The translations under genes were made by a program, and so were the position numbers. Of a stretch of DNA of 64,000 bases, positions 6,039 to 22,859 are shown one piece after another. How positions within the stretch are numbered: the stretch's first letter is position 1; each line of letters begins with the position of its first letter. Source of the DNA: Hydrogenophaga sp. BPS33 (lineage in GTDB: Bacteria > Pseudomonadota > Gammaproteobacteria > Burkholderiales > Burkholderiaceae_C); contig NZ_CP044549.1 in NCBI RefSeq assembly GCF_009859475.1, positions 6,191,501-6,255,500 on the forward strand. The letters run 5' to 3'. The notes beneath the pieces are model-generated. The model saw only the letters and a program-made list of their open reading frames with translations. It was not told the origin of the DNA and ran no database searches.

Positions 6039-6094
6039 GTTCCCACCTTTCGACATAGCGGCCCCGCTGGCTCGAAAGGGACCCTTGGGTTCAG

Positions 6095-6113
6095 ATCGGC
6101 GAGTGTGGCCGAT
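6095..6113 (-). terminator. Inverted repeat between hydrolase and autotransporter
   Basis: ATCGGC and GCCGAT arms around a 7-base loop lie 40 bases past the hydrolase stop and upstream of the autotransporter start. There is no T-run, so this may be a weak terminator, an mRNA-stabilising hairpin or an operator. Confidence 0.3.
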
Positions 6114-6152
6114 TCTTGAGGGTAGTGGTCCTGGAACGGACACGAACCGCGG

Positions 6153-6911
6153 TCACGCCTGCAACAAGCTCTGCGCCCACCACCGGCCCGCGGCTTCGGC
6201 AAGCGCCTCTGGCGTTTCCAGCGGCACGAAGTGGCCCACTCCCTGAAACCGGACCCACCGCGCCTGGGAAACGGCTTGCGCGATCTCGGCTTGCCGATCG
6301 GGTGGGTTGATGAGGTCCTCGTCGCCGCTGGCGATGAGCACGGGCATGCGCAGCGCGGCCAGCCGCGGTCGGCTGTCGGCGCGGTGGTTGGCGATGGCGG
6401 CCTGATCGGCGTACACCGCGGGCCCGGCGGCGAGCGCCATGCGCAGCACCGCGTCTGCCATGGCCGCATCGCCCAGCCGGGCGGGCGCCACGTAGCGCGG
6501 CCACAGATCGCGTCGCAGGTGGCCGGCCATGTCGGCCCGTGCCGCCGCCACGCCGGCCTCGCGCTGGGCCGCGTTCTCGGGTGGGTCGGGGCGTGCGTTG
6601 GCGGCCACCAGTGCCATGCCACCCACCCGCTCAGGCGCCTGCGCGGCCATCTCCAGCGCGACGATGCCGCCGAGTGAAAAGCCCATCAGCGCGAAGCGCG
6701 GTGGCAGCACCTTCAGCAGCGCGCGCGCCATGGCAGCGGCGCTCTGCTGCCCTGCGAGCGTGGGCGTGATGGTGGGCGGCGCGCCGCCGGGCCAGCACTG
6801 CAGCATGGGCGCCCACACCCGGGCGTCGCAAAGCGTGCCGGGCAACAGCACCAACGGCAGCGCCTCGGCGTGTGCACGTGGAGCCTGTGCCGGGCGGCCG
6901 TCGGCGTTCAT
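6153..6911 (-). CDS. Alpha/beta hydrolase
   Basis: 252 residues with the full alpha/beta hydrolase signature: the oxyanion-hole region LPGTLCDARVW near residue 24, nucleophile elbow GFSLGG with Ser79, acid in GDEDLINPP near residue 199 and His227 in GVGHFVPLE. The layout resembles 3-oxoadipate enol-lactonase and carboxylesterase-type members. Substrate unknown. It lies 18 bases downstream of the cupin gene in the same direction and is probably co-transcribed with it, so it may hydrolyse an ester or lactone in the neighbouring catabolic pathway. No signal peptide; cytoplasmic. Confidence 0.85.
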   Translation of the reverse strand: MNADGRPAQAPRAHAEALPLVLLPGTLCDARVWAPMLQCWPGGAPPTITPTLAGQQSAAAMARALLKVLPPRFALMGFSLGGIVALEMAAQAPERVGGMALVAANARPDPPENAAQREAGVAAARADMAGHLRRDLWPRYVAPARLGDAAMADAVLRMALAAGPAVYADQAAIANHRADSRPRLAALRMPVLIASGDEDLINPPDRQAEIAQAVSQARWVRFQGVGHFVPLETPEALAEAAGRWWAQSLLQA

Positions 6912-6929: not shown

Positions 6930-8099
6930 TCAGGCGGCGAGGACAACGCCGATGCCCAGCGCGGTGGGCGGCAGCAAGCGCTTGGACGCGATGCGACCAT
7001 CGGGGTCGAGCACGAAGCCGGCGGCCTCGGCCTGTTGCTGCACCTCGTTGCTCCAGACGATGCGCTTGCGGTGGTCGCCCGATGTCATCACACCGATCTC
7101 GGCCGGAATGTCGCCCACCGAACGGATCTCGCGCCACACGCCTGCCGGTGTGGCGTACACGTCTTGCGGACCGAGGCGCACGGCGACCGCATCGGCACCC
7201 TGGTTCACCAGGATCTCGACCGTGCCCTGCATGACGGACAACACCTGCTTCTCGCGCAACAGGAAACACCCGGTGCGGCCGCCGGGCGCGAGCCGCAACC
7301 AGTCGATGGAGAAACCATGCGCACCCTGGATGGGGGCGATGTGGGCGCGCTGTTCGGTGATGCCGAAGCCCAGCACCGGGGCGAGTTCGCAGCCCGCGCC
7401 CGCTTGCAGCGCGCCGAGCAAGGCCGTGCTCGACCACTCGCGCGCTTCGGCCTTGAGCATGCGCGTGGCCATCTCTTCGGGCGTGTACAGGCGCAGGCCA
7501 TTCATGTCGTCGTCGGTAAGCGGTGTGATAAGCGTTTGCGGCGCGGGCGCTTCACCGCCCGGTGCCACTTCCACGAGCATGTTGTCGCGGCTGAGGTACA
7601 GGCTGTGCTCGGCCGCCGCCTTGAGGATGGAGGGGTGCCAGATGATGCCGCCGGTGTCGTCGCCGCCGAGCGCGGTGACGATCCAGCCGTTGTCGGTGCC
7701 GACGTTGGTGAAGCCGCGAAAGATCCAGGTCGGCACGCTCAGCACGTCGCCCGGCACGCCCTCCACTTCGTGCATGGTGCGGCCATTGCCCCAACGAAAG
7801 CGCCAGCGGCCTTCCTGCACCAGGAACACCTCGGCGGTGAAGTGCACGTGCAGGTTGTTCGTGACACCGGGCGGCATCGCGCCCACACCCACGCTGAAGC
7901 CGTGCGGCTCGGTGATGTTGACGAACTGTTCATCGGACTGCGTCACGCCCGGCCCGATCAGCGAGTAGTTCTCTTTCAGGTCGGAACCCGGCAGCTTGCA
8001 GTCGATGAACGCGAGCTTGCAGGCGACCATGTCGGTGCGGCGGATGGCGCGCGCCTGGGCGGCTTCGGGGCTCAGGGTCAGGTGGGTTGTGGTGTCCAT
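6930..8099 (-). CDS. Double-cupin protein
   Basis: 389 residues. The N-terminal cupin (about residues 60-170) keeps metal-ligand-type residues in NNLHVHFTAEVFLV (HxH then Glu) and a downstream PGDVLSVPTWIFRGF strand. A second cupin-like half (about 265-350) has VLSVMQGTVEIL and VYATPAGVWREI but has lost the HxH motif. The arrangement suggests a metal-dependent isomerase, dioxygenase or sensor-like bicupin; I do not recognise the family. ATG 8099 has GAGGA upstream (CGAGGACAC). The longer open frame upstream runs through the palindromic operator at 8131-8148 and is not used. Its promoter region is shared with the divergent LacI gene, so it is very likely in that regulon. Confidence 0.8.
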   Translation of the reverse strand: MDTTTHLTLSPEAAQARAIRRTDMVACKLAFIDCKLPGSDLKENYSLIGPGVTQSDEQFVNITEPHGFSVGVGAMPPGVTNNLHVHFTAEVFLVQEGRWRFRWGNGRTMHEVEGVPGDVLSVPTWIFRGFTNVGTDNGWIVTALGGDDTGGIIWHPSILKAAAEHSLYLSRDNMLVEVAPGGEAPAPQTLITPLTDDDMNGLRLYTPEEMATRMLKAEAREWSSTALLGALQAGAGCELAPVLGFGITEQRAHIAPIQGAHGFSIDWLRLAPGGRTGCFLLREKQVLSVMQGTVEILVNQGADAVAVRLGPQDVYATPAGVWREIRSVGDIPAEIGVMTSGDHRKRIVWSNEVQQQAEAAGFVLDPDGRIASKRLLPPTALGIGVVLAA

Positions 8100-8130: not shown

Positions 8131-8148
8131 AATGCATTCGAATGCATT
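8131..8148. promoter_or_regulatory. LacI-family operator O1
   Basis: AATGCATTCGAATGCATT is a perfect 18-base palindrome with the central CG typical of LacI/GalR operators. It lies between the divergent cupin (start 8099) and LacI (start 8233) genes. Its core TGCATTCGAATGCA matches two further sites at 18603 and 18634 ahead of the large operon. Confidence 0.85.
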
Positions 8149-8232
8149 AGGATTGTGCGCCACCCGAAGTCAAGAAGCAAGCACCCCTTCGGCATCGAGC
8201 CAGTACAGTCGCAGGCACAGGAGCCTCCGTCC

Positions 8233-9306
8233 ATGCCGCCACCCCGCGTCCCATCGCTTTCGTCCGCCCGCGCAGTACGCTCCGCCACCGCAAGCCGTGG
8301 CGCCACGCCCAGCGGGCGCGCCACGTCCTATGACGTGGCCGTGGCCGCGGGCGTGTCGCAACCCACGGTGTCGCGCTGCTTCGCGCCCGAGAGCCACATT
8401 TCCGAGAAGACCCGCGCGCACGTGCTCGCGGTGGCCGAGCAGCTGGGCTACACGCCCAATGTGTTGGCGCGCTCGCTCATCACCCGGCAGTCTCACGCCG
8501 TGGGCCTGGTGATCACGCGCTACACCATGCTGGCCACGCCCGGCTTGCTGCACGCGCTGGGCGACGAGTTGGCGCGCGCGCACAAACGGTTGATTCTTCT
8601 GGCGGTGGAAAACGATGAGGACGCGGGCGCCGCGCTGAACGACATCCGGGGTTATCCCCTGGACGGGCTCATCAGCTGCGCCACGCTTGACGACGCCTCC
8701 CTGCTGCACTTCAAGCGCCACGGTGTCCCGCTGCTGTTTTTCAACCGCGCACCCGGCAAGGTCGGCGCGGACAGCGTGTCGACGCACCACGCAGAAGGCG
8801 CAGCGCAACTCGCCACCGCGCTGCTGGCCGCTGGCTACCAGCGCTTCCTCTGCATCGGCGGGCCGAAGAAAGCCCCGGTGAGCGTGGAGCGCATGAAGGG
8901 CTTCACGGCCACGCTGGCGCAGGCCGGCATGGCGCCGCAGATGGTGGTGCATACCGACTTCACTTACCAGGGCGGCCACGACGCGTTTCTCGCCGCTGTA
9001 CAGCAAGGCGCAAAGCCCGATTGCGTCTGGTGCGCCAACGATGCAATGGCACTCGGCGTGATCGACGCCTGCCGCTGGGAACTGGGCTGGCAGGTGCCGC
9101 AGGACGTGGCCGTGGCCGGCTTCGACGACGTGGCCGAGGCCTCGCGTTCGGGCTACCGGCTCACCACCGTGCGCCAGCCGATCGGGGAGATGGCGGCGCG
9201 CGCCGTGGCGTTGCTGCTGGAGCGCGCGCAGGAGCCCTCGCTCAAGCCCCGCGCCATCGCCTTCGACGGCAATCTGGTCGAGCGCGCTTCTGCCGCGCTC
9301 GGTTGA
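8233..9306 (+). CDS. LacI/GalR-family transcriptional regulator 1
   Basis: 357 residues. After a 30-residue low-complexity N-terminus comes a LacI helix-turn-helix (residues 31-50, TSYDVAVAAGVSQPTVSRCF), the hinge region (LGYTPNVLARSLIT) and a periplasmic-binding-protein-like ligand domain to the end, with WCANDAMALGVIDA and VAVAGFDDVAEA as family marks. ATG 8233 has AGGAG at 8218-8222. It is divergent from the cupin gene with operator O1 between them, so it probably represses both itself and the cupin-hydrolase pair, and through the same operator type the operon that starts at 18580. Its stop is 3 bases from the convergent ABC ATPase stop. Effector unknown; probably a sugar or sugar acid. 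Confidence 0.93.
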   Translation: MPPPRVPSLSSARAVRSATASRGATPSGRATSYDVAVAAGVSQPTVSRCFAPESHISEKTRAHVLAVAEQLGYTPNVLARSLITRQSHAVGLVITRYTMLATPGLLHALGDELARAHKRLILLAVENDEDAGAALNDIRGYPLDGLISCATLDDASLLHFKRHGVPLLFFNRAPGKVGADSVSTHHAEGAAQLATALLAAGYQRFLCIGGPKKAPVSVERMKGFTATLAQAGMAPQMVVHTDFTYQGGHDAFLAAVQQGAKPDCVWCANDAMALGVIDACRWELGWQVPQDVAVAGFDDVAEASRSGYRLTTVRQPIGEMAARAVALLLERAQEPSLKPRAIAFDGNLVERASAALG

Positions 9307-9309
9307 GCG

Positions 9310-10380
9310 TCAGAGCCTTGCTTCGGTCTTCGGATCGAAGAAGTGGCAATGCTGCGCGGGTAGCGCGAGCGCCACGGGGTCGCCGATGGCCAGGCGCAGG
9401 TGCCTGTCACCGCGCACGCACAGGCGGTCCTTGCCCACTTCCACCGTGAGCAACACCGCGTCCCCGGTGAGTTCGGACATGTAGACCTGGCCCTTGAGCA
9501 GCGCCTCGCCGTCCTGGGCGCTGCCCTCGGCAGCTACACGCAAGTCTTCGGGGCGCACGCCCAGAACCACATCACCCTGCGCCGTGGCCGGTGGCGTGAG
9601 GCCATCAAGCCGTTGTACGCCCACGTGCACCACGCCACCTTGCACGGTCGCGCTCAACAGGTTCATCGGCGGTGAACCCACGAAACCGGCGACGAACAGA
9701 TTGGCCGGGCGCGCGTACACCTCGGCCGGCGTGCCCAGCTGCTGGATCACACCGCTCTTCATCACCACGATGCGATCCGCCAACGTCATGGCTTCGATCT
9801 GGTCGTGCGTCACATAGATGGTGGTGATGCGCATCTCGGCCTGCAGGCGGCGGATCTCGGCGCGCATGGAAGCGCGCAGCTTCGCGTCCAGATTCGACAG
9901 CGGCTCGTCCATCAGGAACACCTGCGGACGGCGCACGATCGCGCGCGCGAGCGCCACGCGTTGCCGCTGGCCGCCCGAGAGGTCGCGCGGACGCCGCGCG
10001 AGCAGGTGTTCGAGCTCGACCTTCTGCGCCACTTCCTGCACCTGGCGTTGGCGCTCCTCACGGCCGACGCCGCGGATCTTGAGCGGGTAGCCGATGTTGT
10101 CTGCCACGCTCATGTGCGGGTAGAGGCCGTAGTTCTGGAATACCATGGCCACGTCGCGGTCCTTGGGCAGCGCGTCGGTCACGTCCTTGTCCCCGATCCA
10201 GATCTGCCCGTCCGACGGTTCTTCCAGTCCGGCGACCATGCGCATGGTGGTGGTCTTGCCGCAACCCGATGGGCCGAGGAACACCATGAATTCGCCGTCC
10301 TGGATGTCCAGCGATTGCCGTGCCACGCCGACCACGTTGCCCCAGCGTTTTTCGATATTGACGAGTTTGACCAATGCCAT
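9310..10380 (-). CDS. Sugar ABC transporter ATPase (MalK/UgpC type)
   Basis: 356 residues. Walker A GPSGCGKTTT (near residue 36), Q-loop VFQNYGLYPHMSV, signature LSGGQRQRVALARA, Walker B VFLMDEPLSNLDAKLR and the switch His in YVTHDQIEAM are all present. The C-terminal third (about 240-356) is the OB/MOP regulatory domain seen in CUT1 (MalK, UgpC) ATPases. It drives uptake through the two permeases encoded just upstream in the operon (18 bases between genes). It is the last gene of the nine-gene leftward operon. Confidence 0.95.
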   Translation of the reverse strand: MALVKLVNIEKRWGNVVGVARQSLDIQDGEFMVFLGPSGCGKTTTMRMVAGLEEPSDGQIWIGDKDVTDALPKDRDVAMVFQNYGLYPHMSVADNIGYPLKIRGVGREERQRQVQEVAQKVELEHLLARRPRDLSGGQRQRVALARAIVRRPQVFLMDEPLSNLDAKLRASMRAEIRRLQAEMRITTIYVTHDQIEAMTLADRIVVMKSGVIQQLGTPAEVYARPANLFVAGFVGSPPMNLLSATVQGGVVHVGVQRLDGLTPPATAQGDVVLGVRPEDLRVAAEGSAQDGEALLKGQVYMSELTGDAVLLTVEVGKDRLCVRGDRHLRLAIGDPVALALPAQHCHFFDPKTEARL

Positions 10381-10398
10381 GACGGCTCTCCGGAAAAA

Positions 10399-11304
10399 TC
10401 AACGGACCGCGCCGGCCACCAGGCCTGCGGCGAAATAGCGCTGCACGAAGCGCGAGAGGATGAGCATGGGCGCGATGATGAACAGGCCCATGCTGGCCAT
10501 GATGTCCCAGGCATCGCCTTCTTCGGTGCGCGCGCCCATGAGGGCCACCGGCAAGGTCACCGCGTGGTCGCGGCTGAGCACGAGCGCGTAGAAGAACTCG
10601 TTCCACGACACCACGAAGGCGAAGATGGCAGCGGTCGCAATGCCCGGCACCGCCACCGGCACCACCACCGTCCACAGCGCCTGCAGGCGCGTGGCGCCAT
10701 CGATCTGCGCGGCCTCTTCCATGTCGGGCGGCAGCGCGTCGAAGAAGCCCTTGATCATCCAGGTGGCGTAGGGCACGACGAACGACAGGTTGGCGATGAT
10801 CAGCGCCCAGCGCGTGTCCAGAAGGCCGAGGTTTCTAAACACCACGAACAGGGGAATGACGATGATCACCGGCGGCAGGAACTGCGTGGCCAGCAGCACC
10901 AGGGGCGCGACCTGTCCGCCCGGATAGCGGAAGCGCGAGAACGCGTACGCGGCCACGGTGGACACCGGAATGGCAATGGCCAGCGTGCCGGCGGTCACGA
11001 GCACGCTGTTGAGCAGGCGTGCGCCGACCAGGTAGGGCGACTGGAAAGAGGCCACCACGTTGGCCCAGGTGGGTTCGAACAGGATGGCGAGCGAGAACAC
11101 GTCGGCACGTGGCTTGAAGGCGGTGGCGATGATCCAGACCACCGGCAGCACCCACAGCACCGTGATGAGCACGATGGCGATGTTGCGACCAAGGTCTTTG
11201 TGCCGCCTTGCGCGCGATCGCGGCACCGCCACCACTGCGCGGTGGGGCAGCGAAGAGCTTGTCGTCGTGGTCGGGGTGGTGGTCGTGGTGGTGGTGTTGC
11301 TCAT
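10399..11304 (-). CDS. ABC sugar permease, MalG type
   Basis: 301 residues. Six membrane helices with the inner-membrane-component EAA motif in EEAAQIDGATRLQALWTVVVP (about residues 197-217). The N-terminus is unusual: a run of threonines interrupted by one proline (residues 4-14) encoded by an ACC/ACG-type triplet tract next to the start codon. ATG 11304 overlaps the stop of the partner permease by ATGA, so the two are translated as a pair. CUT1-type subunit that forms the channel with MalF-like 11301-12173. Confidence 0.93.
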   Translation of the reverse strand: MSNTTTTTTTPTTTTSSSLPHRAVVAVPRSRARRHKDLGRNIAIVLITVLWVLPVVWIIATAFKPRADVFSLAILFEPTWANVVASFQSPYLVGARLLNSVLVTAGTLAIAIPVSTVAAYAFSRFRYPGGQVAPLVLLATQFLPPVIIVIPLFVVFRNLGLLDTRWALIIANLSFVVPYATWMIKGFFDALPPDMEEAAQIDGATRLQALWTVVVPVAVPGIATAAIFAFVVSWNEFFYALVLSRDHAVTLPVALMGARTEEGDAWDIMASMGLFIIAPMLILSRFVQRYFAAGLVAGAVR

Positions 11305-12173
11305 GAGGCACCTCGCATGGCGAAGCGGGCGTAGACCATGGCCAGCGCCATCATCACGGCGGCCAGCAGCCAGGCCATGGCCGAGGCATAACCGATGTCG
11401 TAGAAGCGGAAGGCGGTGGTGTAGACCATGTGGGGCAAGGTGTCGGTGGCCGTGCCGGGGCCGCCTGCGGTCATCGTCACCACCTGGTCGAGCATCTTCA
11501 GCGAGAAGATGGTCTTGAGCAGGATGGCGATGGCCAGCACCGGCCACAGCTGCGGCAGCACGACCTCGAAGAAGATGCGCACGGAACCTGCGCCGTCCAC
11601 GCGTGCCGCCTCCACCGTCTCGCGCGGCAACGAGGCCAGCGCGCCGATGAAGGTGAGCATGAAGTACGGCGCCCAGTGCCACACGTCCACGATCACCAGC
11701 GCGGCCATGGCCAGCGCCGGGCGCGAGAGGATGGGCTCGGGCGCCAGGCCGGGAATCAGCGCGCGCAGCACCGCATCGATCGCGCCGAACTCGGGGTTGA
11801 GCATGAAGCGCCACGAGATGCCGATGAGCGCGGGCGACATGGCAAACGGGATCACGAGCAGCGTGCGGGCGTTCAGGCGCAGACGCCCGTCTCCCGCCAG
11901 CAACAGCGCCATGCCCATGGCCACCACCAGCGTGAGCAGCACCGAGGGCACGGTGAACAACAAGGTCACCTTGATGCTGCCCAGGAACTCCTGGTCTTCC
12001 AGCAGGTAGGCGTAGTTCGCCAGGCCGTTGAAGCCCTCTGGCGTGGACGAACGCCCCAGGTTCCAGTCGTAGGTGGAGTACACCAGCGACTGGAGCAGGG
12101 GGTAGAAGAGCGTGGCCACACACACCAGCAAGGCGGGCGCGAGCAATAGGTATTTCAGCGTTCTGTCGTGCAT
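11301..12173 (-). CDS. ABC sugar permease, MalF type
   Basis: 290 residues with six membrane helices and the EAA loop ETVEAARVDGAGSVRIFFEVVLP around residues 185-207. N-terminal helix KYLLLAPALLVCVATLFYP is typical of CUT1 MalF/UgpA-like permeases. It is 44 bases downstream of the solute-binding protein and overlaps the MalG-type gene by 4 bases. Together with the binding protein and ATPase it makes a complete importer for a carbohydrate-like substrate. Confidence 0.94.
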   Translation of the reverse strand: MHDRTLKYLLLAPALLVCVATLFYPLLQSLVYSTYDWNLGRSSTPEGFNGLANYAYLLEDQEFLGSIKVTLLFTVPSVLLTLVVAMGMALLLAGDGRLRLNARTLLVIPFAMSPALIGISWRFMLNPEFGAIDAVLRALIPGLAPEPILSRPALAMAALVIVDVWHWAPYFMLTFIGALASLPRETVEAARVDGAGSVRIFFEVVLPQLWPVLAIAILLKTIFSLKMLDQVVTMTAGGPGTATDTLPHMVYTTAFRFYDIGYASAMAWLLAAVMMALAMVYARFAMRGAS

Positions 12174-12217
12174 GGCTGTGCGTGGGGCGACGTTCTCACT
12201 TCAAGCGTTTCGGACCA

Positions 12218-13552
12218 TCAACCGCGGCGCCGGCCGCCAGCGCGCTGCGTGATCTGCTCCACCTGACGGGCGGCGGCATCGAGCGTGGGCTTGACCGCCT
12301 TGTTGCTGGAAACGATGTCGGAGATGGCGGTCTCCAGCACCGTGGCTACCTGTGGCCACACCGTCATCTTCGGCAGGGTGCGCGCATTCTCCAAACTTTG
12401 CAACGCGGCCTGGTGCAGGCCGAAGTTGGCTTGGTTGACCTTCTCGTTGCGGAAGGTGGAGATGTGCGTGGCCACGATGTCGGCGGTGTTCGCGTCGCTC
12501 TTGTCGGAAACGATGGCCGCTTCGAGCGCCGGGTTGGTGACCCACTTCAGGAATTCCCAGGCCGCTTCCTTGTTGCGCGATTGCTTCGACATACCGAAGG
12601 GCATGACGATCGCCACGGAGGGCGTCTTCTTCTCCCCGATGCTCAGCATGGGTGCGAAGCCGACTTGATCCGCCTTGAGCTTGCTGCGGTCGCCGGTGAG
12701 CACCGAGTAGGTCCACCACCAGACCATCATCGAGGCCGAGTTGCCCTGGGCCATCGAGTTGACCATGTCGTACTCGTTGAACTGCGTGGAGCCGGGGTTG
12801 GCGACCTTGTGCTTGAACAGCACGTCCACATAAGCCTGCGTGGCGGCCACACCGGCGGCGTTGTTGAAGATGGGCTTGCCTTGTGCGTCCAGCACATCGG
12901 AGCCGTGGCCCCACAGGCAGTTGAACCACAGCCAGAGGTTCTGGAAGCCGCTGCCTTTCACGTAGTCCATTGCCACGCCGGCCACGCCGGTCTTGTCCTG
13001 CACGGCGCGCGTGGCGGTGAGCATTTCGTCCCAGGTGGTGGGCACTTTGGCGCCGGCCTGTGCGAACAGGTCCTTGCGGTAGAAGTAGAGCTGCGGGTGG
13101 GCACGCACCGGCAGACCGTAGTTGCGGCCTTCGAACATGGCGGCTTCGCTGAACACCTTGGGGTAGCGCGCGAGGTCGAGCTTGTCGGCCTTCACATTGG
13201 CGTCGATCGGCTCCAGATAGCCCGCGAGCGCGGCGAGCCAGCTGTCCTGGTACGCGATGAGGTCGTAGGCGCCGTTGCCGGCCACGGCTTCGGTGGTGAT
13301 CTTGTCGAGCAGTTGGCCGTAGGGCACGTAGGTGTAGACGACCTTGATGCCGGTGAGCGATTCGAACTCGGCCAGGCGTTTTTCCTGTGCGCGGAACTGC
13401 GAGGCCGGTGGCAGCAGCAGGTTCACCGTTTTGCCCGCGTAGGGCTTGCCGGGCTTCAGGCCGTGCTCGGGTGACTGCGCATAGGCGAAAGGCGCAACCG
13501 CCTGCGCGGCGATCGCGGTGGCGCTGGCTTGGATGAAGTGTCTTCTTTGCAT
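12218..13552 (-). CDS. ABC extracellular solute-binding protein (CUT1 family)
   Basis: 444 residues with an N-terminal signal (MQRRHFIQASATAIAAQAVA..AYA); the twin Arg followed by HF and a mild hydrophobic stretch allows Tat export. The mature part shows type 1 sugar-binding signatures such as FESLTGIKVVYTYVPYGQLLDKI, AYQDSWLAAL and SMAQGNSASMMVWW. It captures the substrate in the periplasm for the MalFGK-like importer downstream. It is 47 bases downstream of the aldolase gene in the same operon. Substrate cannot be read from the sequence; oligosaccharide, polyol or sugar acid are all possible. Confidence 0.93.
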   Translation of the reverse strand: MQRRHFIQASATAIAAQAVAPFAYAQSPEHGLKPGKPYAGKTVNLLLPPASQFRAQEKRLAEFESLTGIKVVYTYVPYGQLLDKITTEAVAGNGAYDLIAYQDSWLAALAGYLEPIDANVKADKLDLARYPKVFSEAAMFEGRNYGLPVRAHPQLYFYRKDLFAQAGAKVPTTWDEMLTATRAVQDKTGVAGVAMDYVKGSGFQNLWLWFNCLWGHGSDVLDAQGKPIFNNAAGVAATQAYVDVLFKHKVANPGSTQFNEYDMVNSMAQGNSASMMVWWWTYSVLTGDRSKLKADQVGFAPMLSIGEKKTPSVAIVMPFGMSKQSRNKEAAWEFLKWVTNPALEAAIVSDKSDANTADIVATHISTFRNEKVNQANFGLHQAALQSLENARTLPKMTVWPQVATVLETAISDIVSSNKAVKPTLDAAARQVEQITQRAGGRRRG

Positions 13553-13599
13553 GTCTTGTCTCCTGTGGGCTGCTTGCGGTGGTTGACGAAAAAAGCTGT

Positions 13600-14391
13600 T
13601 CAGTACTGAAGGGGGGCGGCGGCCGGCTCGCCTTGCGCGGCCTGGCGCAGCGCGCGCGTGATGAGGGCCGTGGCCACGTTGGCGAAGAAGCTTGCGCCCA
13701 GAGCGCCGAAGTGCCGCTCGTCTTCGGGCGAGAGGCCGAGCGTGCCCGCGGGCTTGCCGGCATCGGCCACGGCGCGCAGGGCGCGGCCGATGGCGGCATT
13801 CACGTCCGGATGCCGCCAGTTGTCGCCCTGGCCCATCGAGTGCGACAGGTCGTTGGGACCGATGAAAACGGCGTCGACACCGTGGATGGCGGCGATGGCG
13901 CTGGCGTTGTGCACGCCTTCGGGGGTCTCGATCATCGGAATGAACACGATGCCTTCATTGCTGCGCGCGGTGTGGCCGTTGCCACCGAAGGCGCCGTAGC
14001 CGGCGGCGCGCGGGCTGAACGCGCTGCCCCGCTGGCCCGCGCCGGGGTAGCGGATCTGTTGCGCCAGTGCCGCGACCTTTTCCGGTGTATTGCACATCGG
14101 CACCATGACGCCGCTGGCGCCCATGTCGAGCACGCGGGGAATGTCGTGCGGCAGGCATCGCACCAGGGGCACGATGCGGCTGCCGCGCGCGGCCCGCAGC
14201 AGATGCTCGGTGGTGCTCAGATCGGCCGCGCCATGTTCGTTGTCGATAATGACGAACTCGAAGCCGGCGTAGCCGCACATTTCGATCAGGCCCGGGCTGG
14301 GCAACGCGGTGAAGATGCCGCGCACGCGTGTGCCGTTGCGGAGAATGCCGGGCAGGCGGCCGTCGAGGGGATGTCGGTCGAGATGGTCCAT
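13600..14391 (-). CDS. HpcH/HpaI-family class II aldolase
   Basis: 263 residues. Family marks are FVIIDNEHGAADL near residue 47, VMVPMCNTPEKV, the metal-ligand Glu in IPMIETPEGV and metal-ligand Asp in VFIGPNDLSHSMG. Members cleave 2-keto-3-deoxy acids or related 4-hydroxy-2-oxo acids to pyruvate plus an aldehyde (HpaI, GarL, RhmA). The exact substrate is not readable. In this operon it is the natural cleavage step after oxidation by the HisD-type and SDR dehydrogenases, feeding pyruvate into central metabolism. Confidence 0.92.
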   Translation of the reverse strand: MDHLDRHPLDGRLPGILRNGTRVRGIFTALPSPGLIEMCGYAGFEFVIIDNEHGAADLSTTEHLLRAARGSRIVPLVRCLPHDIPRVLDMGASGVMVPMCNTPEKVAALAQQIRYPGAGQRGSAFSPRAAGYGAFGGNGHTARSNEGIVFIPMIETPEGVHNASAIAAIHGVDAVFIGPNDLSHSMGQGDNWRHPDVNAAIGRALRAVADAGKPAGTLGLSPEDERHFGALGASFFANVATALITRALRQAAQGEPAAAPLQY

Positions 14392-14403
14392 GTCAGGGCT
14401 GGC

Positions 14404-15399
14404 TCAGTCGATGGTGATCTGGTTGGTCTTGATCACGTCGGCGAATTTCTTGGTCTCGTCCTGGATGAACTTGCGGAACACCGCGGGGCTCATGGGCTTG
14501 GGCGTGAAGCCCTGGGCGGCGAGCTTGGCCTTGACCGCCGGGGTGTCCAGCACCGCCACTACTTCCTTGTTCAGGATGTTGATCACGCTCTCGGGTGTGC
14601 CCGCCGGCGCGAGCAGGCCGAGCCAGGTCACGGCTTCGAAGCCGGGCACGCCCACTTCGGCCACGGTGGGCAACTCGGGCGCGAGTTCGGAGCGGGTCTG
14701 GCTCGTCACCGCCAGCGCGCGTGCCTGGCCGTTCTTCGCGAAGGCCAGGGCCGTGGTCATGTTGTCGAACTGCATGTCGATCTGGCCGCCCGCGAGATCG
14801 GCGAGGGATTGGCTGCTGCCCTTGTACGGCACGTGCACCGCCTTGCCGCCAATGCGGTTGAGGAACATGACGGTGGTGAGGTGCTGCGAGGTGCCGTTGC
14901 CGCTGGTGCCGTAGGACAGGCCGTCCTGCTTCGCCTTGATCGCCGCGATGAGCGCCTGCGCGCTGCGCGCTTCGGTCTTCGGACCGGCCAGCAGCACCAA
15001 CGGCGTGCTCGCCAGTTGCGTGATGGGCGCGAAGTCGCGCTCGACGTCGTAGCCGATCTTCTTCAGCAGATGCGGGTTGACCGCGAGCGCCGTTTGCGTG
15101 CCGAGCAGCAGCGTATAGCCATCGGGTTTGGCGCGCGCCACGAATTCCGTGCCGATGCCACCGCCTGCACCGGCGCGGTTCTCCACCACCACGCCGCTGT
15201 TCCAGCGTTTGCCCAACTCGTCGGCGACCAGGCGCGCAATGATGTCGGTGGCGCCGCCGGGCGCGAAGGGCACGACGATGCTGACGCGCCCGCTGCCGGG
15301 GTAAGCGGCCTGCGACATGGCGGCAGTGGGCACAGCCATTGCAGCGCCGGTCAATGCCAGCAGCGCGACACGGCGGGAGAAGAATGTGGACAAGGTCAT
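14404..15399 (-). CDS. Tripartite tricarboxylate transporter (Bug-family) binding protein
   Basis: 331 residues. Signal peptide (FSRRVALLALTGAAMAVPTA, cleavage near residue 30) followed by the TctC/Bug fold: VSIVVPFAPGGATDIIARLV, VVVENRAGAGGGIGTEFVA and LSYGTSGNGTSQHL. No TctA or TctB membrane subunit is encoded in the window, so it is an orphan receptor of the type that is very abundant in Burkholderiales. Its place inside an operon with a complete ABC importer is odd; it may sense or capture the same organic acid, or work with a distant TctAB. 19 bases downstream of LacI 2. Confidence 0.9.
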   Translation of the reverse strand: MTLSTFFSRRVALLALTGAAMAVPTAAMSQAAYPGSGRVSIVVPFAPGGATDIIARLVADELGKRWNSGVVVENRAGAGGGIGTEFVARAKPDGYTLLLGTQTALAVNPHLLKKIGYDVERDFAPITQLASTPLVLLAGPKTEARSAQALIAAIKAKQDGLSYGTSGNGTSQHLTTVMFLNRIGGKAVHVPYKGSSQSLADLAGGQIDMQFDNMTTALAFAKNGQARALAVTSQTRSELAPELPTVAEVGVPGFEAVTWLGLLAPAGTPESVINILNKEVVAVLDTPAVKAKLAAQGFTPKPMSPAVFRKFIQDETKKFADVIKTNQITID

Positions 15400-15418
15400 G
15401 GGGGTGTCTCTGTGGTTG

Positions 15419-16492
15419 TCAGGATCGGGTAGCAGGAGATACGTTTGCTTTGCGGCGAACCGATGCGCGCGCCGATGAGGCAGAAGGCGCGGCACGCACG
15501 GAACCGCGCTCCATCAGACGGCAGCCGATCACGATGCTGCGCGCGGGCGCTGTGTTGTCCATGCGCTCCTTGAGAAGCGTGACCGTGGCTTCCACCATGG
15601 CCGGCACGTCCTGCACCACGGTGGTGAGCTGGTAGCTGCCCCAGGCGGCCTGCGGCACGTCGTCGAAGCCGACCACGCTCACGTCTTGCGGCACACGCAG
15701 GCCCAGTTGGTGGCGCAGCACGTCCATGGCGGCGATGGCCATGTGATCGTTCGCGGCGAAGAGCGCGTCGGGCCGCTCGGTGCCTTCAAACAGTTCCAGC
15801 GTGGCGGCCTGCGCGCGCTCGAAGCTGTAGTGGCCGACGGCGCGCTTCCATACCGAGTGCCCGGCATCCCGCAGGCCTTCGACGAAGCCGCGCTCGCGTT
15901 CGACATTGGTCGACGAGTTTTCCAGGCCCGCGAGGAACGCGATGCGCCGGTGCCCCCGCTCGACGAGGTGCTGCGCCACGAGCCGGCCGCCTTCGTGGTT
16001 GTCGGAGCTGACCGAGATGGTGTGGGGCCGCGTGGTGTCCACGTCGGGCAGGCGGTTGAACAGCACCACCGGCACGCCGGAGTCCACGCACTGCTGCGCG
16101 AGGTCTTGCGACAACATGGCCGACGCGATCACGATGGCGTCCACCTGGTATTGCAGGATCTCGGCGAGCGCGCCGTCGGTCTCATTCTCGTCGCTGATGA
16201 ACATCAGCACGTGGTAGCCCTCGCGTTGCAGCAGTTGTGACAGCTGCTGGATCACCAGGGGATAGAACTGGTTCTGCAGATAGCCCATCACCAGCGCCAC
16301 GATGTGGCTGCGCCGCGTGATGAGGCTGCGCGCCAATGCGTTCGGGCGGTAGCCCAGCGTCTTGGCGGCTGCCACGACGCGTTCGCGCGTGGCGTCCGAC
16401 ACGCTGGCACCGGGCGTGAACGTGCGGCTCACGGCCGACTGCGACACGCGCGCCAGGCGTGCCACTTCCTGCGCCGTGGCGCTGGTTCTCAT
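15419..16492 (-). CDS. LacI/GalR-family transcriptional regulator 2
   Basis: 357 residues. The helix-turn-helix lies at residues 4-23 (SATAQEVARLARVSQSAVSR), then hinge LGYRPNALARSLIT, then a ligand-binding domain with AANDHMAIAAMDVL and VSVVGFDDVPQAA. The recognition helix (VSQSAVSRTF) is close to that of LacI 1 (VSQPTVSRCF), so the two regulators may share operators. It is encoded inside the operon it probably controls: its ATG overlaps the SDR stop by 4 bases. The C-terminal 25 residues are Ser/Arg/Ala-rich and may be disordered. Confidence 0.93.
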   Translation of the reverse strand: MRTSATAQEVARLARVSQSAVSRTFTPGASVSDATRERVVAAAKTLGYRPNALARSLITRRSHIVALVMGYLQNQFYPLVIQQLSQLLQREGYHVLMFISDENETDGALAEILQYQVDAIVIASAMLSQDLAQQCVDSGVPVVLFNRLPDVDTTRPHTISVSSDNHEGGRLVAQHLVERGHRRIAFLAGLENSSTNVERERGFVEGLRDAGHSVWKRAVGHYSFERAQAATLELFEGTERPDALFAANDHMAIAAMDVLRHQLGLRVPQDVSVVGFDDVPQAAWGSYQLTTVVQDVPAMVEATVTLLKERMDNTAPARSIVIGCRLMERGSVRAAPSASSARASVRRKANVSPATRS

Positions 16493-17250
16493 GCGGCGCT
16501 CCACCCGCCGTCGAGCATGAGCGCGCTGCCCGTCATGAGGCTGGAGGCGTCGCCAGCGAGGAACACCACCGCACCCATGATCTCGTCCAATCGCCCCAGG
16601 CGGCCCAGTGCGATGCGCTCGAGCACCCAACCGCGAAAGCCATCGTCGGCGAACATGCCGGCGGTCATGGCGGTTTCGATGAAGGTCGGGCACAGGGTAT
16701 TGACACGGATGCCCGCGCTGCCGAGTTCCCAGGCCAGCGCTTTCGTCATGCCTTCGATGGCGTGTTTGCTCGCGCAGTACAGCGTGCGGCGTGGGCTGCC
16801 CACCACGCCCATCTGCGACGAGATGTTGATGAGCGAGCCCGTCAGCCGCTCGGCCAGCAAGCGGCGCGACACGGCGCGCGACACGTAGAACGCCGCCTTG
16901 ACATTCAGGTCCAGTACCGCGTCGATGTCGTCGTCCGTGACGTCCACCAGCGGCTTGGGCCGGTTCATGCCCGCGCTGTTCACGAGCACCTGGTACGGCG
17001 GGCGCTCGGCCAGTTGCGCGTCCACCGCGCGTGCATCGGTCACGTCGACCACCATGAAATCAGCGGTGCCACCCTCGGTGCGGATCTGATCGCAGGCCTG
17101 GCGCAGCTCGTCTTGCGAGCGCGCGGCCAGCGTGACGGCCGCCCCCGCCTGCGCGAGCGCGGCGGCGGCGGCCAGACCAATGCCCCGGCTCGCGCCGGTG
17201 ACGAGCGCGCGCCGGCCTTGCAGACCCGATGGTGGTGTGCGTGGGAGCAT
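16489..17250 (-). CDS. Short-chain dehydrogenase/reductase (SDR)
   Basis: 253 residues, classical SDR: NAD(P) motif TGASRGIG near residue 19, NSAG in the middle, catalytic Ser in INISSQMG and YCASK with Tyr and Lys. The last residues SSLMTGSALMLDGGWSA are the standard end. It oxidises or reduces a secondary alcohol on the pathway intermediate. ATG 17250 was chosen (7 bases after the HisD-type stop) rather than an earlier in-frame ATG, which would extend into the preceding gene. It overlaps LacI 2 by ATGA. Confidence 0.92.
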   Translation of the reverse strand: MLPRTPPSGLQGRRALVTGASRGIGLAAAAALAQAGAAVTLAARSQDELRQACDQIRTEGGTADFMVVDVTDARAVDAQLAERPPYQVLVNSAGMNRPKPLVDVTDDDIDAVLDLNVKAAFYVSRAVSRRLLAERLTGSLINISSQMGVVGSPRRTLYCASKHAIEGMTKALAWELGSAGIRVNTLCPTFIETAMTAGMFADDGFRGWVLERIALGRLGRLDEIMGAVVFLAGDASSLMTGSALMLDGGWSAA

Positions 17251-17257
17251 GCTCAAC

Positions 17258-18580
17258 TCAGGCTTCCAGAGCGGGCACGGGTTGGTACCACGGCACGTCG
17301 GCGCGGGTACCGTAGCGGCGCACCCGCAGGTTGGCCTGTTCACCGTGGCCGGCGAAGTTTTCCATGTGGCACAGGCGCGAGCAGTACTCGCCCATGGTGG
17401 CGCTGGCCTCGTCGGTCAGCACCTTCTGGTAGGTGCAGGTCTTGAGGAACTTGCCCACCCACAAGCCACCGGTGTAGCGCGCGTTGCGGTTGGTGGGCAG
17501 CGTGTGGTTGGTGCCGATGACCTTGTCGCCGAAGCTCACGTTGGTGCGCGCGCCGAGGAACAGCCCGCCGTAGTTGGTCATGTTGTGCAGGAAATAGTCC
17601 GGGTCGCGCGTGATCACCTGCACGTGCTCGAACGCGAGTTCGTCGGCCTTCTGCAACATTTCTTCCTGCGTGTCACAGACGATCACTTCGCCGTATTCGG
17701 CCCAGCTCACCGAGGCCACACCGGCCGTGGGCAGGATGGTGAGCTGGCGATCGATTTCCGCCATGGTCTCGCGCGCCAGCTGTTCGCTGGTGGTGAGCAA
17801 AATGGCCGGCGACGTGGGGCCGTGCTCGGCCTGTCCGAGCAGGTCGACCGCGCACATCTCGGCGTCTGCCGTCTCGTCGGCAATCACCAGGGTTTCGGTC
17901 GGACCCGCGAACAGGTCGATGCCCACGCGGCCGAACAGCTGGCGCTTGGCCTCGGCCACGAACATGTTGCCCGGGCCGACCAGCATGTCCACCGGCGCGA
18001 TGGTCTTGGTGCCCACGGCCATCGCGACCACGGCCTGCACGCCACCGAGCACGAGGATTTCGTCGGCGCCGCCCATGGCCATTGCCGTGACGATGGCGGG
18101 GTGCGGGGCACCTTGGTACGGCGGCGCCGTGGCCACCACGCGCTTCACGCCCGCCACCTTGGCCGTCAGCACGCTCATGTGGGCGGAAGCCAGCAACGGG
18201 TACTTGCCGCCGGGGATGTAGCAACCCACGGCATTCACCGGAATGTGCTTGTGGCCGAGGATGACGCCGGGGTAGGTTTCCTGCTCGACGTCTTTCATGG
18301 AATCGCGTTGGATCTGCGCGAAGTGGCGCACCTGCTTCTGAGCGAAGGTGATGTCTTCGATCTCGCGCGCCGAGAGCTTCTTGCGTGCGGCCTCGATCTC
18401 GACTTGAGAGAGGCGGAAGTCCGCCGGATCCCACTGGTCGAATTGACGGCTGTATTCGCGCACCGCGTCGTCGCCGCGTTGCTCGACTGCTTTGATGATG
18501 GATTCCACGGTCGCGCGGACCTTGGCATCGTCCTCGGCCCGGACTTCGACGTCCTTACCGCGCTTCAAATATCTGATCAT
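17258..18580 (-). CDS. Histidinol-dehydrogenase-family NAD-dependent dehydrogenase
   Basis: 440 residues. It keeps the HisD zinc-site motifs (GQAEHGP with Gln and His; [11 protein letters not shown] with His) and the active-site region GTNHTLPT, plus [16 protein letters not shown]. No histidine biosynthesis genes are nearby, and it heads a catabolic operon with an SDR and an aldolase, so it is a HisD paralog oxidising an alcohol to an acid. Such paralogs include HpsN (dihydroxypropanesulfonate 3-dehydrogenase); that substrate is not proven here. ATG 18580 has GGAG seven bases upstream. It is the first gene of the operon, with two LacI operators ahead of it. Confidence 0.88.
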
Positions 18581-18602
18581 TTCCTGGCTCCGTAGTGGCT
18601 GT

Positions 18603-18616
18603 GCATCCGAATGCAT
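18603..18616. promoter_or_regulatory. LacI-family operator O2
   Basis: TGCATCCGAATGCA is a near-perfect palindrome (one mismatch) 23 bases ahead of the HisD-type start codon. It shares TGCATnCGnATGCA with O1 and O3 and is centred 31 bases, three helical turns, from O3. Confidence 0.8.
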
Positions 18617-18633
18617 AGAACTGTGCAGGCCGT

Positions 18634-18647
18634 GCATACGTATGCAA
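18634..18647. promoter_or_regulatory. LacI-family operator O3
   Basis: TGCATACGTATGCA is a perfect 14-base palindrome in the control region of the nine-gene operon. The spacing to O2 places both on the same face of the DNA, as expected for cooperative LacI-family binding. Confidence 0.82.
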
Positions 18648-18707
18648 ATAGGGGAAAACCCGAGGTTATTCAGGGGCCAGTGCGGCCGCGCATCGGGTGG
18701 TGCTGGT

Positions 18708-19335: not shown

Positions 19336-20307
19336 TCACTCGAACTTGATGCGGCCCGTGTCGACCACCTGTTTCCAACGCGCCACGTCCTGCGCCATGA
19401 AGGTCGCCAGCGCATCGGGCGAACTGGCCCTCACTTCCATCGATGCGGTCGCCAGTTTCGTTTGCACGTCGGCATCTGCCAATGCCTTGACCAGTTCACG
19501 GTTCAGCGAAGCGATCACGGTTGGTGGCGTGCGGGCGGGCACCGCCAGGCCGTACCAGCTGGTGTAGTCGTAGCCCGTCAATCCGGCCTCGGCGACGGTG
19601 GGCACGTCGGGCAGGACCTTGGAGCGCACGCTGGGGCCGATGGCCAGCGCCCGCACCCGGCCTGTCTTCACCATCGGAATGGCAGAGGGATCCACAAACG
19701 ACACATCAACCGACTTGTTGATCACGGCGGTAACGATCTCCGAACTCGACTTGAACGGCACATGGAGCATCTCCACGCCAGCGGATTGCATGAGCAGCTC
19801 GGCTGCAAGGTGCTGGGAGTTGCCGACACCGCCCGATGCCACCGTCAGTTGGCCGGGGCGGGCCTTCGCGGCGGCAATCAACTCCTTGAGGTTTTTCCAA
19901 GGCGCGTCAGGATGGGCAATGAAGATGGGTGACAGCGCAACAGCCATGCCGACCGGCGCAAAATCCTTCACAGGATCGAAAGACAGTTTGCGCCCGGCGA
20001 CCGCGGCAATCGTGTTGGAAGGCGTCGCCACCAACAGCGTGTGTCCGTCTGCCGGCGCGCGTGCGACAAATTCGCTGCCGATCATCCCGCTCGCACCCAC
20101 GCGGTTTTCGACAACAACCGGCTGCTTGAATGCTGCGCTGAACTTTTCCCCGATCAAGCGCGCGAAAACGTCGGGTCCGCTGCCAGGCGCGAACGGCACA
20201 ACGATCTTGATGGTCTGCGACGGGAAATCCGACTGCGCAAGTGCGGATACGTGCATGAGGGCGGCAGGTACCGCTGCCGCTGCGGCGATGAGAGAACGTC
20301 GAAGCAT
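19336..20307 (-). CDS. Bug-family (TctC-like) solute-binding protein 2
   Basis: 323 residues. Signal peptide (LRRSLIAAAAAVPAALMHVS..LA, about 25 residues) and Bug motifs IKIVVPFAPGSGPDVFARLIG, VVVENRVGASGMIGSEFVA and LTVASGGVGNSQHLAAEL. Periplasmic receptor for an organic or amino acid-like ligand. It is the last gene of the IclR-M24-PLP operon (76 bases after the PLP enzyme), so its ligand is probably the substrate of those enzymes. No TctAB partner in the window. Confidence 0.9.
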   Translation of the reverse strand: MLRRSLIAAAAAVPAALMHVSALAQSDFPSQTIKIVVPFAPGSGPDVFARLIGEKFSAAFKQPVVVENRVGASGMIGSEFVARAPADGHTLLVATPSNTIAAVAGRKLSFDPVKDFAPVGMAVALSPIFIAHPDAPWKNLKELIAAAKARPGQLTVASGGVGNSQHLAAELLMQSAGVEMLHVPFKSSSEIVTAVINKSVDVSFVDPSAIPMVKTGRVRALAIGPSVRSKVLPDVPTVAEAGLTGYDYTSWYGLAVPARTPPTVIASLNRELVKALADADVQTKLATASMEVRASSPDALATFMAQDVARWKQVVDTGRIKFE

Positions 20308-20383
20308 GAAAGCACTCCAAGTAAGAAGATAGGGCCTGGTATGGCGGGGAAAGTGGGAAGAGACCTGACGCACAGGGTCGTGA

Positions 20384-21661
20384 CTAGCGCACCGAACCAC
20401 CACGCTGCGACAACAGGTTGTGGGTGGCGCTCGCGAGCTCCGGGATCTGCTCCCGGCCCACGGTGACGACGGGCAGCGGATTCCAGCTCCCCGTTGACTT
20501 GTCGGTGTCCTTGAGGCCAGAGGCGGTCGCCAGGCAAACGACCGTATCGTCCTCCCGCATCACACCGCTGCGCGCGAGCTGCCGCGCTGCGACAAAGGGC
20601 ATGACACTGGCCAGTTCGTACAGCAAGCCCTCGCGGCATGCCACCAGCTCCTGCATATCGATGAGGCCTTCATTGCCGATCTGCACGGCCAGACCATCGC
20701 TCATACGCAACCAGTGAAGGGCCTGGTAGGTACTCTGGTTTGCACCGACCGACGCGGCCAGCGTGGCGTACTCTGCATCCACCGCGTCCACGCAGTCGGT
20801 CTGATGGGCCATGGCGTTGACGAGCGAGCCATGGGCCTCGGCCGCCACCAGCCGGGGGCGCTTGTCGATCTCACCAGCGCATAGCAAGTCCTCGAAACCC
20901 TGCGCGATACCGGCGAGGGCGTCGCCATAGCAGACGGGCATCACGACCCAGTCCGGGGCACTGCCCAAGTCACCGACGATCTCATAGGCAATGGTCTTGT
21001 AGCCTTCGATGCCCACCGCCGTGCTGCCCACCACCGGCGCGGCATGCGGAGACGTGACGTACCAGCCGTGGCGAGCAGCGCCTTCGGCCAGCAACGGCCA
21101 GCGCAAGCTCTTGTCGTCCATCATGACGAGGTGCGCGCCGTACTTGCGGATCTGCGCCATCATGGGACCGGAGGCGCCTTTCATGGAGGCCACCACGCAC
21201 TGCAACCCGGCTCTTGCAGCGTAAGCCGCCAGCGACGCTCCGGCATTCCCTGACGAAGCGGTCGCGACGACGGACGCCCCTTGAGCCCGGGCGTGCGATA
21301 CGGCCACTGCGCTGAGCCGGTCTTTGTAGGAGTGCGTCGGATTGCACGACTCGTCCTTGATATACAGCCTCTTCAACCCCAGGAGCTCGCCCATCCGGCG
21401 TGCAAGGTGCAGTGGCGTGCCACCCTCGCCCAGCGTGACCGCCTGATCGGTGGGCACAGGCAGCATCTCGCCGTAGCGCCACATGCCCGGTGGCATGGCA
21501 TGCTTGTTCTTGAACCGCCAGCCTGGCACCTCCTGCGGGTCGTACACAACGCGCAGGTTGCTCGCCAGCTTGCCGGTGCAGGCCGCACAACCCGATCGGG
21601 CAACTTGCGGCGCATACCGCGTGCCGCAGCGCAGACACTGCATGGCAACAGGGCGGCTCAC
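20384..21661 (-). CDS. Threonine-synthase-like PLP enzyme with N-terminal zinc ribbon
   Basis: 425 residues. A zinc-ribbon-like start with Cys9, Cys12, Cys25 and Cys28 precedes a fold-type II PLP domain with the Schiff-base Lys113 in NPTHSYKDR and the phosphate loop ATASSGNAGASLAAYAA. This is the ThrC/cysteate-synthase-like architecture. No other threonine biosynthesis genes are nearby, and the genes around it are an M24 hydrolase, IclR regulator and uptake receptor, so a catabolic lyase or dehydratase role is more likely than threonine synthesis. GTG 21661 is chosen: it overlaps the previous stop as GTGA and has AAGG seven bases upstream; ATG 21643 lacks a ribosome site. Confidence 0.85.
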   Translation of the reverse strand: MSRPVAMQCLRCGTRYAPQVARSGCAACTGKLASNLRVVYDPQEVPGWRFKNKHAMPPGMWRYGEMLPVPTDQAVTLGEGGTPLHLARRMGELLGLKRLYIKDESCNPTHSYKDRLSAVAVSHARAQGASVVATASSGNAGASLAAYAARAGLQCVVASMKGASGPMMAQIRKYGAHLVMMDDKSLRWPLLAEGAARHGWYVTSPHAAPVVGSTAVGIEGYKTIAYEIVGDLGSAPDWVVMPVCYGDALAGIAQGFEDLLCAGEIDKRPRLVAAEAHGSLVNAMAHQTDCVDAVDAEYATLAASVGANQSTYQALHWLRMSDGLAVQIGNEGLIDMQELVACREGLLYELASVMPFVAARQLARSGVMREDDTVVCLATASGLKDTDKSTGSWNPLPVVTVGREQIPELASATHNLLSQRGGSVR

Positions 21662-22854: not shown

Positions 22855-22859
22855 GGATC

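Follow-up and report, generated by a model that had tools for sequence, protein, structure and literature searches.

Can two related regulators that are encoded in one gene block, and whose operators are nearly identical, act separately? The question is raised by a catabolic block of Hydrogenophaga sp. BPS33, in a stretch of 64,000 nucleotides (contig NZ_CP044549.1, positions 6,191,501 to 6,255,500; hereafter the window, whose numbering is used throughout). The block encodes two LacI-family proteins, LacI1 (8233–9306, plus strand) and LacI2 (15419–16492, minus strand), and holds three copies of a palindrome with half-site TGCAT-N-CG, one at the divergent promoter of lacI1 and a cupin gene, and two in front of an operon that begins with a hisD-like gene and includes lacI2 and the malEFGK genes. 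Sequence comparisons make it probable that the two LacI proteins are autoregulated and largely insulated from each other by the base adjoining the CG at the centre of their operators, and that they possibly meet at the promoter of the fused operon.

Exact copies of the motif, TGCATNCGNATGCA, lie in the window at 8133–8146, 18602–18615 and 18633–18646, where 0.02 copies were expected, and none of 100 dinucleotide shuffles reached three. The first copy, TGCATTCGAATGCA, forms the middle of a perfect palindrome of 18 bp (AATGCATTCGAATGCATT, 8131–8148) and is centred 40 nt 5′ of the cupin ATG (8099). The other two are centred 28 and about 60 nt 5′ of the ATG of the hisD-like gene (18580). The distal one, TGCATACGTATGCA (18633–18646), is a perfect 14-bp palindrome; the proximal one, TGCATCCGAATGCA (18602–18615; reverse strand TGCATTCGGATGCA), consists of one LacI1-type half and one half with C, leaving a single unmatched pair beside the central CG. 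The initial annotation had described three matching operators, two of them perfect palindromes, at the two control regions of the block, and in this it was right; its coordinates for the last two sites were one base too high, whereas the spacing of 31 bases that it gave is correct. In a promoter scan no sigma-70-like promoter was matched at either control region, no Rfam family matched the window at gathering thresholds, and the operator, searched under variant spellings, was not found in the published literature.

A genome-wide scan, which the initial annotation had suggested, showed the motif to be rare. In 6.77 Mb (6,772,294 bases) it occurs exactly at four places, against about 0.21 expected from the base composition of the window and none for the reversed-pattern control. 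When one mismatch was permitted, 11 further places were found (15 in total; three for the control), and as about 8.8 were expected, most or all of these 11 can be background; a one-mismatch site with a TTCGAA centre lies at C1:5903302. The fourth exact copy, TGCATCCGCATGCA at C1:1503528, adjoins an open reading frame (ORF) that, judged from its translation, resembles the transposase of an insertion sequence (IS) element, and is probably stray. The same 14-mer also occurs once in genome G295, away from the hisD operon of that genome.

Both LacI1 and LacI2 have a LacI helix-turn-helix (HTH; PF00356) and a periplasmic-binding-like domain (Peripla_BP; PF13377). They are 36% identical, and in a tree of 28 rows, limited to HTH rows picked up by a regular expression, they are separated by a branch supported at 100/100; they therefore look like old paralogs, not like a recent duplication. 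HTH residues (AA) and operator bases (NT) are numbered here as in Camas et al. (2010), residues being placed by the anchors of that paper (TVSR = 17–20, A51, L54). LacI1 has Y at AA-5, QP at AA-15/AA-16, TVSR, L54 and I55; LacI2 has Q at AA-5, QS, AVSR, L54 and I55. The two are thus equal at Q15, R20, L54 and I55, and differ at AA-5 (Y/Q), AA-16 (P/S) and AA-17 (T/A). Among the five PF00356 matches of the genome, Q at AA-15 is found only in these two, the other three LacI-type proteins having PI, TA and PM at AA-15/AA-16.

At the sensitivity and thresholds of the genome surveys, on which all absences of LacI1 and LacI2 depend, LacI1 was found in at least 1 of 67 genomes of the genus and at least 1 of 399 of the order (in both cases that of the window), and in at least 2 of 299 of the family (the window's own and one at 44%). 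It was also found in at least 6 of 268 genomes of the family of Candidimonas and at least 2 of 394 of that of Paracoccus, and in at least 1 of 101 genomes congeneric with Variovorax sp. UMC13, the centre genome being counted in each of these three. So patchy a distribution fits a horizontally moving module. No relative of LacI1 was found in viral contigs. LacI2, at E 1e-120, was present in at least 16 of 399 family genomes.

The initial annotation had posed in advance that the palindromes should persist in genomes that keep the operon. They do: an exact site lies within 200 bases 5′ of the aligned HisD start in 20 of 20 near-relative genomes (window included), defined by a HisD start inside the stretch together with a LacI2-type operon at ≥57%. 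In the alignment of these 20 promoters, a copy with one mismatch served as the anchor for L027, L028 and L037; the HisD alignment of L030 is broken into three pieces, and the hisD gene of the genome of L136, on a separate contig (L146), is counted. Loci L031 and L140 (no HisD in the stretch) and L038 (HisD cut by the contig end) were left out; L031 has a one-mismatch site 5′ of lacI2. When the hisD set was aligned on the motif, most core positions reached 2 bits, except the bases beside the CG, and the flanks did not exceed 1.0 bit. Farther HisD loci have exact sites (L134, with a fused malE-hisD operon, and L144), one-mismatch sites (L045, L046, L048 and, at the operon start, L135) or a two-mismatch variant (L051). 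At L044, L047, L049 and L055 no site within two mismatches was found near hisD; in the first three of these R replaces Q at AA-15.

Genome-wide, the exact motif occurs six times in UMC13 (within 15 kb) and three times in Candidimonas, in both genomes only inside the one gene cluster, twice in Paracoccus and three times in Mesorhizobium. Twelve further genomes have one to three copies each (the reversed-pattern control gave one, in one genome), at least two of these copies being outside the examined stretches (G082 C53:244913 and G295 C1:1142353). The rarity of the motif in the genome, its conservation, and the position of both lacI genes, which is suited to autoregulation, support the restriction of the regulon to the block that the initial annotation had proposed.

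The variable bases beside the CG define operator sub-types, which we denote by these two bases (TTCGAA, T/T; TACGTA, A/A; TCCGAA, C/T). The window has T/T at the cupin/lacI1 promoter, and A/A and C/T at the fused hisD operon. In the ten genomes (window included) with a close LacI1, taken as ≥47%, a cut that was chosen after the loci had been seen, the cupin promoter is T/T in all ten, three of them with an outer-edge mismatch (G862, G863, G865). The cupin gene is divergent from lacI1 in eight of these genomes and not in Paracoccus and Mesorhizobium; in Mesorhizobium the cupin-side site stands 5′ of an ORF that itself precedes the cupin gene. Where malE has a promoter of its own, no sub-type but T/T is present in seven of eight cases (G865 and Mesorhizobium C21 through one-mismatch sites only), and where hisD has one, in six of these genomes other than that of the window, it is A/A in all six. 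Fisher's test of cupin versus hisD centres gave p=8.7e-5 (9 and 7 promoters), and p=3.3e-4 when a near-duplicate pair was collapsed (8 cupin versus 6 hisD, with the window entered as A/A and Mesorhizobium left out); as the genomes are related, these values are guides only. The initial annotation had predicted cross-regulation of the two paralogs on a single operator type. The two promoters do not have the same sub-type in relatives, where T/T or A/A follows the promoter; a single type is thus doubtful, and cross-regulation is plausible mainly at the fused promoter of the window.

In 13 genomes in which no close LacI1 was present in the stretch, A stands on one side or both in a site of every hisD promoter; none has T/T, and A/T and A/G are common. 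Nine of these 13 were in the family survey for LacI1, and only G082 matched, at 44%. Two closely similar hisD promoters were also observed: L132:7827–7866, where LacI1 is present, has A/A twice, and L026:7177–7216, where none was found, has A/G and A/T (the genome of L026, G122, belonged to the family set surveyed for LacI1). This pair fits a stricter, A/A, choice of hisD sites when LacI1 is present.

The base beside the CG is NT-2, and in the part of the study by Camas et al. (2010; PMC2978694) that was available to us, on the LacI TVSR code, NT-2 correlates with AA-55, AA-15 and AA-5. Only AA-5 among these three differs between LacI1 and LacI2. The LacI1 orthologs that were read carry Y at this position, whereas LacI2 relatives have Q, L, I, V, F, T, M and others. 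When palindromes were sought upstream, a match was found near 18 of 58 distinct LacI HTHs and none near the other 40; the 58 were collected by a regular expression, which some LacI genes (e.g. L042 and L043) escaped. Six of the seven HTHs with Y at residue 5 have T only and the seventh is mixed, and eight of the 11 non-Y HTHs have A only, the remaining three having T within a different half-site (TGCCG). NT-2 is probably read partly by residue 5. AA-17 (T versus A) as the determinant of NT-2 was not favoured, on few cases: at their upstream sites L054 (N5, TVSR) has A and L035 (Y5, VVSR) has T. AA-16 is S in both paralogs in most relatives, the P/S difference being that of the window.

We picture a local catabolic regulon under two autoregulated LacI-family proteins, probably repressors. 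LacI1 would bind TGCATTCGAATGCA at its own promoter, which is divergent with the cupin and hydrolase genes, and LacI2 would bind TGCATACGTATGCA 5′ of the hisD-like operon that encodes it. The main discriminator would be NT-2, T for LacI1 and A for LacI2, and residue 5 of the HTH, Y in the one and Q in the other, probably contributes to its recognition. As malEFGK is joined to the hisD operon here, the pure LacI2 site and the mixed, half-LacI1 site may combine both signals.

Several observations weigh against this two-repressor scheme, beginning with the late choice of the cut for LacI1. The paralogs differ at AA-16 and AA-17 besides AA-5; the association of AA-5 with NT-2 has p=0.05 by Fisher's test on all matches and 0.001 only when the three matches with a different half-site are removed, and it is close to a single evolutionary event because of the 100/100 split of the clades. 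The malE promoter of UMC13, which is unfused, is mixed (T/T, one-mismatch T/T, A/A and C/T), and the mixed 14-mer found at 18602 in the window recurs there. The A/T and A/G sites at hisD where no close LacI1 is present indicate that A on both sides is not a requirement of LacI2. A LacI1-like protein of G082 (about 44–45%, Y5) lies near a T/A site, and that of G1260 (45%, S5) near an A/A site beyond the 3′ end of the gene. No site within two mismatches was found at the promoter of lacI1 itself in Mesorhizobium, and L055, with a Q-S helix and without a site near hisD, is an apparent exception; ABC transporter genes precede hisD there in the same direction, and the operon may start further upstream.

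Fused operons are where the two proteins might meet. In G862, G863, G865 and G933 a TTCGAA-centred site lies in the gap between the HpaI-type aldolase gene and malE; in the window this gap, of 47 bases, has no site within two mismatches. Where ATP-binding cassette (ABC) transporter genes and hisD form one operon in a genome with LacI1, tandem mixed sites are found: A/A and C/T in the window, A/T and T/A at Mesorhizobium C87, which has its LacI2 gene downstream, and T/T and G/A, with one mismatch in each site, in Paracoccus. Only a few promoters show this pattern, which does not amount to a test. As a sign of integration it is weakened by the ABC genes of Paracoccus, just two of which match those of the window (the ATPase at 55% and a permease at 29%), and by L007, L031, L033 and L034, where ABC genes lie downstream of lacI2 in the same direction. 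In L007, L033 and L034, which have no close LacI1 in the stretch, ABC genes also lie downstream of hisD, and the exact hisD sites are only A/A. As these ABC-bearing loci lack mixed exact hisD sites, the mixed pattern can hold only with a close LacI1. That co-resident paralogs are in general insulated through the CG-flanking pair, read by residue 5, with fused promoters as points of integration, is accordingly a tentative proposal, possible and on the whole doubtful. Heterodimers of LacI1 and LacI2 on mixed sites were set aside, since A/T sites also occur in genomes without a close LacI1.

The three sites could instead be a single operator type that both paralogs bind, with full cross-regulation. 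The TGCAT half-site is indeed common to all, AA-15, AA-20, AA-54 and AA-55 are equal, and the site at 18602 is mixed; moreover, GntR of Escherichia coli recognises IdnR sites, a case of LacI-family paralogs that share sites, in the available part of Ravcheev et al. (2014; PMC4052901). Yet wherever LacI1 coexists with separate promoters, the choice between T/T and A/A tracks the promoter, save at malE of UMC13, and we regard complete sharing as unlikely. LacI2 might also govern all three sites alone, LacI1 acting elsewhere or being inert. The hisD operator is kept in 13 of 13 genomes without a recognised close LacI1 (9 of the 13 were searched for LacI1), and homologs of LacI2 are the commoner ones (at least 6873 versus at least 518 at E 1e-60), which speaks for such a role; but all ten close LacI1 genes that were read cluster with TTCGAA-centred cupin-promoter sites, and in genome G902 LacI1 is accompanied by two TTCGAA sites while neither HisD nor LacI2 was found in the 19.9-kb stretch, so that control by LacI2 alone appears very improbable. 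Finally, the exact copy at C1:1503528, apparently a stray one, would be in keeping with chance palindromes, or with sites of an unrelated regulator; against 0.02 copies expected in the window, and with a conserved core between diverged flanks, this is hardly credible. Two autoregulated and largely insulated LacI proteins thus remain our preferred reading.

The initial annotation had further described the two hisD-side sites as in phase on the helix. A helically phased cooperative doublet was rejected, because an integral-turn spacing is not kept in relatives: the two sites of a doublet are spaced by 31 bp in the window, L027 and L028, by 26 bp in L026, L029, L030 (where the second site has two mismatches) and L132, 27 bp in L134, 24 bp in L135, and 123–156 bp in L036, L037 and L039. 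Spacings of LacI-family sites peak at 13, 22 and 32 bp according to the part of Ravcheev et al. (2014; PMC4052901) at hand, and 31 bp is ordinary among them. The LacI2 operator is preceded, at a distance of 4 bp, by an additional element, GGGTTTTCCCC (18651–18661, minus strand). Counting the window, 12 of 20 hisD promoters have a GGGTTTTCCC-like element (G, G or T, G; three to four A/T; up to two bases; CC) 4–5 bp 5′ of this operator, against 1% of random 32-mers from the same loci; it may be the site of another regulator or part of the promoter. Nothing relevant to it was found in the literature among the matches listed. Judged by eye, L138 has a comparable element 5′ of a LacI1-type site.

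The genes under this predicted control form two groups, their starts being our choice. On the minus strand, from 18580 to 9310, nine genes follow each other, overlapping slightly or separated by no more than 47 bases, as would fit a single operon: the hisD-like gene, for a histidinol-dehydrogenase-family enzyme (17258–18580; PF00815), a short-chain dehydrogenase/reductase (SDR; 16489–17253; PF13561), lacI2, a TctC/Bug-type solute-binding protein (14404–15402; PF03401), an HpcH/HpaI-family aldolase (13600–14391; PF03328), a MalE-type solute-binding protein (12218–13552; PF01547), MalF-type (11301–12173) and MalG-type (10399–11304) ABC permeases and, last, a MalK-type ABC transporter ATPase (9310–10380), these last three being assigned from their translations and a gene order kept in relatives. 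lacI1, on the plus strand, is convergent with malK and divergent from the cupin gene (6930–8099, minus strand; PF07883), after which comes an alpha/beta hydrolase gene (6153–6911, minus strand; PF00561). The model of the cupin protein is mostly beta (mean predicted local distance difference test score, pLDDT, 90.7), and no sequence match to it was found in the PDB at E 0.001. The nearest solved structures to the hisD-like protein are sulfopropanediol 3-dehydrogenases (8v35, E=1.2e-118, nearly full-length alignment), which suggests a related reaction. The substrate of the block is perhaps sugar- or polyol-like, a guess from the type of ABC transporter. The gene combination, sought as four of five components together, was not found in the published literature.

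Next to the block, at 3375–6143 (minus strand), lies an autotransporter gene with PATR, autochaperone and beta-domain. Upstream of the block, 19336–22995 (minus strand) encodes a second TctC/Bug-type binding protein, a PALP-family pyridoxal phosphate (PLP) enzyme and an M24/creatinase-like protein.

In conclusion, this is a genuine LacI regulon of an ordinary kind, whose two nearly identical operator sub-types make an instructive and unusually clean natural comparison. It provides a small natural system in which cross-talk between paralogous repressors, and its avoidance or use, can be studied where the operators differ mainly at one base pair, a proposed promoter logic for a catabolic block, and a case for the LacI code at NT-2 where, of the three residues correlated with that base, two do not vary. 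On the insulation of two paralogs, the published literature gave general papers only among the matches listed.

Comparison with known systems places these features as follows. Like HpsN, the sulfopropanediol 3-dehydrogenase (PDB 8v35, 8wwe), the hisD-like enzyme aligns over nearly the whole of 8v35; unlike the HpsN system, this block additionally holds transporters, an aldolase and a cupin. As in the TVSR code, within the part of Camas et al. (2010) consulted, R at AA-20 goes with G at NT-6; LacI2, in contrast, is AVSR and not a member of the TVSR group from which the code was derived. The regulator domains, the even CG-centred operators and the conservation of the sites are those of LacI-family local regulons. 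As covered in the accessible part of the RegPrecise analysis (Ravcheev et al., 2014; PMC4052901), such regulons have even CG-centred palindromes, mostly 30–140 bp 5′ of start codons, with frequent autoregulation and tandem sites, as here. The present block differs in having two paralogs with near-identical operators, and doublets at 24–27 bp besides 31, the published peaks being at 13, 22 and 32 bp. GntR and IdnR of E. coli, in the same source, are related LacI-family paralogs with overlapping operators, as are LacI1 and LacI2; unlike that pair, the proteins described here are merely 36% identical, and their operator sub-types are apparently separated by NT-2.

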